Source: Terriglobia bacterium
Lineage (GTDB): Bacteria; Acidobacteriota; Terriglobia; UBA7540
NCBI GenBank assembly: GCA_030041095.1
Contig: JASHON010000196.1
Span: 1 to 61,419, forward strand
DNA length: 61,419 nt
Reading direction: 5' to 3'
In this document: one piece after another, positions 13,650-61,239 of the stretch
Position numbering within the stretch: position 1 is the stretch's first letter
Layout: each line of letters starts with the position of its first letter
Made by a program: the position numbers and the translations under genes
Notes under the pieces: generated by a model
Seen by the model: the letters and a program-made list of their open reading frames with translations, nothing else
What the model was told of the DNA's origin: nothing
Database searches by the model: none

Positions 13650-13905
13650 AGCACGACTTCAGTCATGCCGCAAAGATGCTGAAGGAAAAAGAGCTTTACA
13701 GGCTGCGGAAAAACTCGACGCCGCCGCGAACGTGGCGCCGGCATCTTGCCGGCCTCCGTTGAATTGAAGCGAGTTGCCGGCTGGAAGCCGGCGCTACGTC
13801 AACTCCCGAAAAGAGTTTTTCCGCAGGGGCTAAAGCCCCGCGATCGGCGGACCTGAGTCGGCATGACTGAAGTCATGCCCTGATACAGGGGTACGAAGCG
13901 GCTGC
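13650..13905 (-). repeat. REP pair of a RAYT unit (RAYT lost), interrupted by a MITE
   Basis: 13650-13698 is the inverted form of the REP that elsewhere flanks the RAYT start (compare 61135-61200). 13827-13905 is the inverted form of the REP that elsewhere holds the RAYT stop (compare 18441-18540), with the palindrome GGCATGACTGAAGTCATGCC. Between them only the 128-bp MITE remains; no RAYT coding sequence is left. Shared CCGCAG at the junction (13821-13826) between the MITE end and the REP suggests a microhomology deletion that removed the transposase. Confidence 0.7.
13699..13826 (+). mobile_element. MITE copy 1, right end truncated
   Basis: It begins CAGGCTGCGGAAAAACTC directly after a TTTA. 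Two hairpins follow, built on GCGCCGGC-atctt-GCCGGC and GCCGGC-tggaa-GCCGGCGC, and it ends in GAGTTTTTCCGCAG. The last four bases (CCTG) of the right inverted repeat are missing and REP sequence continues. The interior is nearly identical to copies at 16556 and 40019. It has no coding capacity. Confidence 0.75.
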
Positions 13906-16435: not shown

Positions 16436-16765
16436 GGGCGCTTCGGCAGCCGCTTCGTACCCCTGTATCAGGGCGTGACTTCAGTCATGCCGACTCAGGT
16501 CCGCCGATGGCTGGGCTTTAGCGCCTGCGGCTCTTCGCTTTGCCAAGTGGCTGAACAGGCTGCGAAAAAACTCGCCGCCGCCGCGAATGGTGCGCCGGCA
16601 TCTTGCCGGCCTCCGTTTAATTAAAGCGAGTTGCCGGCTGGAAGCCGGCGCTACGTCAACTCCTAAAAGAGTTTTTCCGCAGCCTGTAAAGCCCTCTTTC
16701 CTTCTGCATCTTTGCGGCACGATTAAAGTCATGCCCTGACACGAGGCGGCTTCGATCAATCCCAA
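16436..16765 (+). repeat. REP-RAYT remnant unit with inserted MITE
   Basis: 16436-16531 is the REP that encodes the RAYT C-terminus (GTGACTTCAGTCATGCC palindrome). 16531-16555, read on the minus strand, still encodes FSHLAKRRAAGAKA of the RAYT and stays open to its stop in the REP. The MITE starts immediately at 16556, and the REP that normally precedes the RAYT start follows (16687-16765). So all but about the last 24 codons of the transposase are gone, with one breakpoint exactly at the MITE end. Confidence 0.7.
16556..16686 (+). mobile_element. MITE copy 2 (131 bp)
   Basis: Both ends are present: CAGGCTGCGAAAAAACTC and GAGTTTTTCCGCAGCCTG, with the two GCCGGC hairpins inside. The right flank is TAAA, the expected target core of the REP; the left flank is TGAA, part of the RAYT coding sequence, so the original left flank has been lost. 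The interior is nearly identical to copies 1 and 3. Confidence 0.78.
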
Positions 16766-18440: not shown

Positions 18441-18868
18441 CGGGCGCTCCGGCAGCCGCTTCGGTACTCCCGTATCAGGGCATGACTTCAGTCATGCCGA
18501 CTCAGGTCCGCCGATGGCCGGGCTTTAGCCCCTGCGGCTTTTCCCTTTGCCAGGTAGCTGAAGCCGTACCGCATAGGGTTGGACACGATGACGAAATCAC
18601 GCAATTGGAATTTCCTCTTCGCCACGTAGGAGCCCAACAGATCGATCATCAGCGTAGCGTTGCGCTCCAATTGCGGCAGGGCTCGTCCCTGGCACGTCTT
18701 GGCGGAGACGAAGAACGTACGCGAAGAGCTCACGATATGGCTCGGGTTGGCATTACGGGTAGGCCGTGACATCAGCAGGGGCTAAAGCCCTCGTTCCTTG
18801 AGCATCTTTGCGGCACGACTAAAGTCATGCCCTGACACGAGGCGGCTTCGATCAATCCCGAAATGTAG
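18441..18868. repeat. REP-RAYT-REP unit with internally deleted transposase
   Basis: A left REP (18441-18540, palindrome GGCATGACTTCAGTCATGCC) and a right REP (18777-18868, GGCACGACTAAAGTCATGCC) enclose a shortened RAYT reading frame on the minus strand. The arrangement matches 60466-61230. No MITE is present here, so the target core GGGCTTTAGCCCC is seen intact at 18522-18534. Confidence 0.75.
18488..18772 (-). pseudogene. RAYT transposase remnant (internal deletion)
   Basis: 94 codons remain of a REP-associated tyrosine transposase (Y1/HUH family, IS200-like). The N-terminus (MSRPTRNANPSHIVSSSRTF) and the start of the catalytic domain (YVAKRKFQLRDFVIVSNP) match the copy at 61134. Where that copy has MPNHMHLLIT, here VSNPMR is joined directly to YGFSYLAKGK near the C-terminus. 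The HUH motif, the catalytic tyrosine region and about 100 residues are therefore missing in one in-frame deletion. The stop codon lies in the left REP. It cannot be catalytic. Confidence 0.75.
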
Positions 18869-40018: not shown

Positions 40019-40148
40019 TAGGCTGCGGAAAAACTCGGCGGTGCCGCAAATGGTGCGCCGGCATCTTGCCGGCCTCCGTTGAATTGAAGCGAGTTGCCGG
40101 CTGGAAGCCGGCGCTACGTCAACTCCCGAAAGCCTTTTTCGCAACCTG
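40019..40148 (+). mobile_element. MITE copy 3 (130 bp) with TATA target duplication
   Basis: A complete solitary copy outside any REP. Ends are TAGGCTGCGGAAAAACTC and CCTTTTTCGCAACCTG. It is flanked on both sides by TATA (40015-40018 and 40149-40152), a clear 4-bp target-site duplication. The interior is the same double-hairpin sequence as copies 1 and 2. It lies 84 bp after the GH51 stop. Confidence 0.82.
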
Positions 40149-60494: not shown

Positions 60495-61134
60495 TCATGC
60501 CGACTCAGGTCCGCCCGATGGCCGGGCTTTACAGGTTGCGGAAAAACTCCTCCGAGAGCCCCCAACGGCGCTCCTCAAGGTTTGTAAGTTATTGATTCTC
60601 CGTTCGAGCGACCGCCATTTTCGGCCGATTTTGGCTCCGAAAAACCGTTTTTCCGCAACCTGTTTAGCCCCTGCGACTTTTCGCTTTGCCAGGTAGCTGA
60701 AGCCGTACGGATACTCCTCGGGCGACTCGACCAGCCCCCCTTCACCGGGTTTTCCGCAATATACCTCCGATGCCGTAGAAAACTCTGCTGGTCTTGGACC
60801 CGCACCTCCGAGAAGCCCCGCTGCCAGACTGCGCCCAAGTACCTGAACTCCCTCTTCAGCCGAAAAGAAAATCCACCCTTGATGAATTGCACGGCCTTCT
60901 CAATCGTCATCTCCCCGCTCACCGTGATGAGCAAGTGCATGTGGTTGGGCATGATGACGAAATCATGCAATTGGAATTTTCGCGCCGCCACGTAGGAGAG
61001 CGGCAGATCATCAGCGTAGCATTGCGCTCGGACTGCAACAGGGCCCGTCCCTGGCACGTGTTGGTGGAGACGAAGAACGTACGCGAAGAGTTCACGACCT
61101 GGCCCGGGTTGGCATTACGCGTAGGCCGTGACAT
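60495..61134 (-). pseudogene. REP-associated tyrosine transposase (RAYT), disrupted
   Basis: Reading from ATG 61134: MSRPTRNANPGQVVNSSRTF, then KFQLHDFVIMPNHMHLLITV with the HUH pair HMH, and SFLRHRRYIAENPVKGG with the likely catalytic tyrosine. It is broken three times. A GATC is missing near 61005 compared with the 18.6-kb copy (frameshift). A G-run near 60737-60742 is one G short of the frame that continues GGLVESPEEYPYGFSYLAK. A MITE (60532-60662) splits the C-terminus. The stop would be inside the left REP (60495-60497). RAYTs are single-strand HUH enzymes thought to mobilise REPs. Confidence 0.8.
60532..60662 (+). mobile_element. MITE with different interior, TTTA target duplication
   Basis: Ends CAGGTTGCGGAAAAAC and GTTTTTCCGCAACCTG form 16-bp perfect inverted repeats of the same type as the other three MITEs. 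The 99-bp interior is unrelated to theirs and lacks the GCCGGC hairpins. TTTA (60528-60531) is duplicated at 60663-60666. Removing the element and one TTTA restores the GGGCTTTAGCCCC seen intact at 18522-18534, so the insertion is demonstrable. Confidence 0.85.
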
Positions 61135-61239
61135 CAGCAGGGGCTAAAGCCCTCTTTCCTTCAGCATCTTTGCGGCACGACTAAAGTCATGCCCTGACAC
61201 GCCGCGGCTTCGATCAATCCCAAAATGTAGAAACTCCGG

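Follow-up and report, generated by a model that had tools for sequence, protein, structure and literature searches.

REP palindromes are an established class of target for bacterial mobile elements. ISPsy8, ISPa11, ISPpu9, ISPpu10, ISRm22 and ISRm19 were published as REP-targeting insertion sequences (ISs) in 2006, and in the excerpts of that report cited here they enter the REP at a fixed point, which is the symmetry axis for ISPsy8 and ISRm22, and most of them make short duplications (PMC1525189). According to the same excerpts, the IS5-family element ISNm1106 has only a type-2 association, that is, it lies near REPs (PMC1525189). RUP, NEMIS and ERIC, as far as the cited sections of PMC3733652 describe them, are short, gene-less, dispersed elements with inverted ends, and so is MITEAba12 in the part of its description used here. 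Those sections of PMC3733652 also describe GTAG REPs and RAYT genes that have either GTAG repeats or different inverted repeats on their flanks, and they note that dimers of REPs are regularly found within other palindromes.

The MITE described here shares the fixed insertion point and the short duplications with the REP-targeting ISs, but by comparison with the excerpted account (PMC1525189) it is gene-less, has IS5-type ends and uses a short palindromic target that also occurs outside REPs. It shares its general build with RUP, NEMIS, ERIC and MITEAba12, and differs from what the cited portions say of them in placing unrelated interiors, several with REP-like hairpins, under one set of ends. 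Insertion into a REP is a published phenomenon, and going by PMC1525189 in part, REPs as targets of mobile elements are not new; what is added here is a sharper target rule.

The window is the whole stretch of 61,419 nucleotides that we analyzed; it is contig C196 of a draft assembly that totals 4.88 Mb in 207 contigs. The insertion near its end, and the locus with which it was compared, consist of the following features.

60532..60662, forward strand: MITE with an interior of type A, 131 bp, ends and length checked; its own genome holds 8 complete type-A copies
60532..60547, forward strand: left terminal inverted repeat, CAGGTTGCGGAAAAAC; 60647-60662 is its perfect reverse complement
60647..60662, reverse strand: right terminal inverted repeat, pairing perfectly with the left end over 16 bp
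60528..60531, forward strand: left copy of the target duplication TTTA
60663..60666, forward strand: right copy of the target duplication TTTA
60524..60671, forward strand: split REP core, GGGC-TTTA / TTTA-GCCCC, enclosing the element and matching the intact core at 18520-18532
18520..18532, forward strand: intact REP core GGGCTTTAGCCCC, paralogous empty site

Read directly from the sequence, the layout is GGGC-TTTA-(131 bp)-TTTA-GCCCC, in which the element splits the GGGCTTTAGCCCC core. Everything that the preliminary description had claimed for this locus is present, namely a 131-bp element, 16-bp perfect inverted ends and an exact TTTA duplication within the REP core, and the insertion is confirmed as real. 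With such ends, and at a length too short for a transposase gene, the element has the makeup of a MITE. An intact REP core had also been reported at 18522-18534; it exists, and its real position is 18520-18532, two bases off. When the 60.5-kb flanks are joined minus one TTTA, 109 of 116 aligned columns are identical to the 18.5-kb locus, which is why we regard that locus as a paralogous empty site. Four joined flanks from outside REPs were searched in G001, a genome of the same genus, without a match, in a search that is uninformative on absence; the empty-site evidence therefore rests on the paralogue.

The ends of this element are repeated throughout its genome. The end motif CAGGYTGCGGAAAA occurs 158 times (85 forward, 73 reverse), while the same pattern read backwards, as a control, occurs not once, which rules out chance similarity as the source of the motif. 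A complete listing of paired 10-bp ends gives 48 elements. In stretches of the genome, rather than the whole of it, allowing up to 3 mismatches per 15-bp end yielded 67 elements, or 65 once 2 nested artefacts were dropped. By interior, 8 of these are type A, 52 type B and 3 type C, with 2 unclassified, and the three types look unrelated to one another. A length of 131 bp is found in 42 type-B copies, in all 8 type-A copies and in one type-C copy. As is usual for a MITE, duplications are present at many sites: 30 of the 65 elements are flanked by exact 4-bp duplications and 3 by exact 5-bp ones, 21 are off by one of the four bases and 11 are further off. In type C (L037, L087:6569, L092, L016), ends that are identical or similar to these enclose a palindromic repeat resembling GTCATGCTGAGCGAAGCGAAGCATC.

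Three further copies lie in the window, each with a pair of hairpins.

13699..13830, forward strand: type-B copy with left flank AGAGCTTTA and TTTA on the left; right end fused to an intact REP core
16556..16686, forward strand: type-B copy with mismatched sides, TGAA on the left and TAAA on the right
40019..40148, forward strand: type-B copy of 130 bp, TATA duplication on both sides in a GCGC/GCGG context, outside a REP core
13735..13794, no strand assigned: inverted pair of GCGCCGGC...GCCGGC hairpins in a type-B copy; same pair at 16592-16651 and 40055-40114

Three of these four window copies had been thought to use the same REP core, which is correct in part. The element at 60532-60662 alone duplicates inside it; the copies at 13699 and 16556 have unlike sides, and the copy at 40019-40148 sits outside a REP. 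At the right end of the copy at 13699, the terminal CCTG is replaced by GGGC, as judged by eye. The REP sequence TTTAGCCCCTGCGG (18524-18540) and the MITE end TTTACAGGCTGCGG (13821-13834) have CTGCGG in common at the same offset from TTTA, and the copy at 13699 passes between the two on its right side; the sharing of CTGCGG is possibly due to chance.

Where the elements land follows a sequence rule. The 30 exact 4-bp duplications comprise 15 of TTTA or TAAA and 15 others, and every one of the 15 others scores at least 6 of 8 for GGC-TNNA-GCC, a score reached by 0.6% of 43,101 control positions, taken at 7-base intervals along the stretches that contain the elements, which overlap in part. This enrichment at duplicated sites rules out random targets. 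Copies without a duplication, or scattered at random, would speak against targeted insertion, and we looked for both: 33 of 65 elements have exact duplications, and the sites outside TTTA cores share GGC-TNNA-GCC.

The genome has 355 perfect GGCTNNAGCC sites (control 99), of which 165 are GGCTTTAGCC in either orientation, with TTTA or TAAA cores (82 and 83; controls 10 and 9); 97 of the GGCTTTAGCC sites extend to GGGCTTTAGCCC, REP status having been checked for part of the sites. Among insertions with exact duplications in perfect sites, 13 are in TTTA/TAAA sites and 1 in another, against 165 and 190 available sites (Fisher p = 0.0006). A GGCTTTA/GGCTAAA core adjoins at least one side of 8 of 8 type-A copies and 17 of 52 type-B copies (Fisher p = 0.0004, by exact match); the remaining 35 type-B copies are likewise an exact-match count, which misses degenerate cores. 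Exact TTTA/TAAA duplications flank 7 of the 8 type-A copies. In G001 we read 24 of 32 copies by eye: 23 have a 4- to 6-bp duplication between GGC and GCC, 18 of these being TTTA/TAAA, and palindromes with differing outer arms are also used. Two G001 loci (L293, L302) have a second MITE nearby in a palindrome of its own, the pairs being 32 and 74 bp apart.

These figures bear on a reading in which the transposase recognizes the REP itself, either as a longer sequence or as a cruciform hairpin, as published for ISPsy8, ISPpu9/10 and ISRm22. The closer contact of type A than of type B with the core, and the 18 TTTA/TAAA cases among 24 copies in G001, are what such recognition would give, whereas the same short palindrome at all 15 of the other exact duplications and the varying outer arms in G001 are not, and we consider REP-specific recognition improbable. 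In the cited excerpts of PMC1525189, a type-1 REP-targeting element has every copy at the same REP point, a pattern that breaks down here, with all type-A copies at the core and type B at 17 of 52. The idea that a REP palindrome is the landing site is partly supported: insertion at the TTTA center recurs, but the target is the 10-bp palindrome GGC-TNNA-GCC, not the REP as such. In other words, it is the match of its core to GGC-TNNA-GCC that makes a REP a landing site. From the 13 insertions against 1, with TTTA cores making up 165 of 355 sites, it follows that, among the versions of a general palindromic target, the REP core is both common and preferred.

Some copies have unlike sides. In four copies in the genome (L033, L049, L059, L065) and one in G001 (L296), the left side is TTTA and the right side TAAA. 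The sides of L049 and L059 resemble the outer halves of two REPs that flank a RAYT-like gene in the window:

60578..61057, reverse strand: RAYT-like (Y1/IS200-type) gene adjoining the split REP, possibly degenerate; PF01797 Y1_Tnp, 44 bits, cut-off 23
61140..61152, reverse strand: another REP core GGGCTTTAGCCCC, beyond the RAYT-like gene as seen from the split REP

Judging from the REPs that adjoin it, this gene would be a RAYT. L049 and L059 would fit an event in which an element in one REP recombined with an element in the other and the RAYT-like gene was lost, and we infer that most copies of the TTTA ... TAAA kind are recombination products of copies in different REPs, such as the two flanking this gene. 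Tobes and Pareja, in the portion of PMC1525189 cited here, explain three mismatched ISRm22 copies by recombination between copies. For the reverse-complement flanks of L296 in G001 and L100 in G019, a genome of the same family, quasi-palindrome repair was considered, with recombination as the alternative. At L100, a type-A-like element lies between GGAAGGGCGGGGCTTCA and its exact reverse complement, and the tetranucleotides are inverted, not direct. Elsewhere in the window, what by eye appears to be a shortened RAYT remnant lies between two inverted REP cores at 18520-18790, which are about 260 bp apart.

The RAYT-like gene also raises the question of whether it could be the RAYT (Y1 transposase) system, and not a DDE transposase, that spreads the element along with the REP. 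This gene adjoins the split REP, and the type-B interiors contain a REPIN-like inverted pair of hairpins. A DDE element is a better fit to duplications that lie outside REP cores and to ends that stay constant while the interiors are unrelated; REP movement by RAYT is not known to produce target duplications. Spread by RAYT is very improbable, the least credible of the readings weighed here. All 6 matches to the GCGCCGGC...GCCGGC hairpin in the window are inside MITE copies; unlike a REPIN, the type-B pair is found in the window only inside a unit bounded by terminal inverted repeats, and none was seen in type A. The likeness to GTAG REPs and RAYT loci (PMC3733652, in part) and to REPINs (PMC3116915, in part) is that type-B interiors contain two inverted hairpins, GTAG-tagged in many copies, and that the target REP here flanks a RAYT-like gene; the difference is that the repeated unit here is bounded by inverted ends and target duplications. 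GTAG/CTAC stands beside the hairpin pair in many type-B copies, as REPIN-like cargo. Under the same MITE ends, G003, G027 and G054 have different hairpin pairs, as read by eye.

An IS5-family element is the likely source of the MITE, judged from sequence. A DDE_Tnp_1 search over five genomes led to a contig of G019 (G019:C79), the transposase of which matches NF033581 at 213 bits (cut-off 140) as well as PF05598 and PF01609, with a reading frame that by eye appears broken near the start. Downstream of this gene, the contig contains the end CAGGCTGCGGAAAAAGCC (read inward), with TTTAGGCC outside; this right end is identical over 15 bp and lies beside TTTA, and the left end is off the contig. 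A G023 transposase, 59% identical to that of G019, is encoded within an IS of 1275 bp that has CAGCTTGCTGAAAAA as its ends and is flanked by GGCACGGCTAAA and TTCAGCCGTGCC; the tetranucleotides beside this IS differ (TAAA and TTCA). More distant relatives with related ends show CTAG duplications (L258/L259, L260, L262) or TTAG (L256), and others have unequal tetranucleotides (L253/L257, L261). The likeness to IS5-family ISs (NF033581, transpos_IS5_4) lies in the transposase of the relatives, the 15-bp motif of the one end present on the G019 contig and the 4-bp duplications, whereas the distant relatives duplicate CTAG or TTAG and this genus uses TNNA between GGC and GCC.

The G019 protein has some match in 26 of 61 genomes. 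In the genome of the window, a search for a close G019-type transposase gave a best match at E 2.5e-4 and 27% identity. An autonomous copy was sought among its 6 DDE_Tnp_1 loci, none of which has both ends at 2 or fewer mismatches (L240 has one end at 1 mismatch); the end-motif places covered are the first 100 of the 158. This genome may have lost its autonomous copy, or the draft assembly may miss it. The IS5 target is YTAR. Copies in this genome depart from it, using TNNA within GGC/GCC, and this line may have exchanged YTAR for GGC-TNNA-GCC as its target.

We surveyed the ends in other genomes. Paired 15-bp ends were found in 7 of 61 genomes, including that of the window. A scan of GTDB contigs for lengths of 118-147 bp gave at least 95 stretches holding at least 100 elements, of which 71 have a 4-bp duplication, 2 a 5-bp duplication and 27 neither. 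The 80 titled stretches among the matches listed come from Terriglobia, Acidobacteriaceae, other Acidobacteria, Bryobacterales, Deltaproteobacteria, Nitrospirae/Nitrospira and Rhodopila, and outside Terriglobia many of the elements among the matches listed have CTAG, TTAG or TTAA. Several Acidobacteriaceae interiors (e.g., L316, L325, L377) contain GGGCTTTAGCCC-like hairpins, and L394 is inserted in sequence resembling such an interior; an element can thus carry its own landing site. Across 396 genomes of the phylum, elements of 111-171 bp were found in 3, including that of the window, and elements of 61-121 bp in none, using in both cases a pattern that needs an A between two gaps and is less sensitive at the extremes. 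A plasmid search gave 4 matches, all of them weak and all spanning less than 80% of the query. In viral contigs we found no CAGGNTGTTGAAAA-type ends and no elements of 60-89 bp with the related CAGGYTGCTGAAAA ends; elements with CAGGYTGCTGAAAA ends of 120, 149, 150 and, twice, 160 bp were present. An end pair 1611 bp apart in a viral contig (L125) has no duplication, lies within long open reading frames and is probably a chance pair.

The part most worth following is the distribution of lengths. We grouped 125 distinct, N-free elements, all with exact 15-bp ends, by blastn of their interiors; one linkage rule gave 17 clusters and the other 21. For modal lengths between 118 and 147 bp, the Rayleigh R at 10.5 bp is 0.71 (n = 16), with p = 0.0002 under a uniform null and 0.0017 when any period from 8 to 14 bp is allowed. 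Under the alternative linkage, R is 0.74 at 10.5 bp (n = 20), reached by 0 of 20,000 uniform sets, with 0.00005 for any period. With the viral-contig CAGGYTGCTGAAAA elements added, there are 130 elements in 21 families, the modal lengths of which are 119, 119, 120 (three families), 131 (five), 132, 139, 140, 141, 141, 143, 144, 149, 149, 150 and 160 bp. These gather near 120, 131, 141, 150 and 160 bp (one family at 160), approximately one helical turn apart. Ignoring kinship, R for the 21 families is 0.70 at 10.5 bp, with a peak of 0.73 at 10.05 bp, and 0.70 is reached by 0 of 5,000 jittered sets (shifts of up to 6) and by 0 of 5,000 uniform sets (110-165 bp). One two-element cluster (137 and 143 bp) was entered as 137 in the first analysis and as 143 in the 21-family analysis.

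Lengths also jump within single clusters, with 109 beside 131 bp in type A and its relatives and 120 beside 131 bp in type B. Lengths between the steps occur as single elements of 125, 128, 129, 135, 137 and 138 bp, and the largest interior cluster spans 125 to 151 bp. Such steps might have arisen by accident, from a few ancestral lengths passed down in families of hidden common origin. Clustering was by blastn only, and deeper homology may remain; the GTDB part of the length sample, at least 95 stretches, covers 118-147 bp and other scans covered other ranges; and the in-between lengths exist. Against an ancestral accident stand the clustering of the 21 family modes, unmatched by any of the shifted sets, and the jumps inside single clusters, and we consider it rather unlikely. 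We lean, by a modest degree, toward a lattice: IS5-related MITEs with unrelated interiors would have lengths spaced by about a helical turn (approximately 109, 120, 131, 141, 150 and 160 bp), selected for the phasing of their ends, while nothing would keep the interiors from containing REP hairpins, which are landing sites in their own right. The elements would be about as long as, or shorter than, the persistence length of DNA, so that their ends would pair well only when facing the same side of the helix, and viable lengths would therefore step by approximately 10 bp.

There are parallels for such a constraint. IS50 is said to offer a precedent in work reportedly by Goryshin et al. in 1994. 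The lengths of internal eliminated sequences (IESs) of Paramecium have a periodicity of about 10 bp below 150 bp, which the cited part of PMC3464196 reads as DNA looping in the excision complex; those are ciliate sequences removed by a domesticated piggyBac transposase, whereas these are mobile bacterial elements (PMC3464196, in part). Among titles and abstract openings in the openly licensed literature, we found no description of this family or of helical lengths in bacterial MITEs.

The family consists of multi-copy elements with the same ends, unrelated interiors, 4-bp (rarely 5-bp) duplications and a common target, GGC-TNNA-GCC. The explanation that best accounts for the whole, and one that we hold to be highly probable, is that a DDE transposase of the IS5 family mobilizes the MITE in trans; this enzyme would bind the CAGGYTGCGGAAAAA ends and use the palindromic target GGC-TNNA-GCC. 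The transposase would act symmetrically on the palindrome, making a 4-bp staggered cut across TNNA, and such a cut would place the insertion at the symmetry axis of any REP with GGCTTTAGCC.

In place of the statement that a mobile element likes REPs, a sequence rule predicts where it lands. The rule offers a reason why a REP-rich genome gathers these elements, and why rearrangements around them may affect RAYT loci. Should the lattice of lengths prove true, sequence alone would report the geometry of an IS5-type transpososome, as the lengths of Paramecium IESs do for a domesticated piggyBac.
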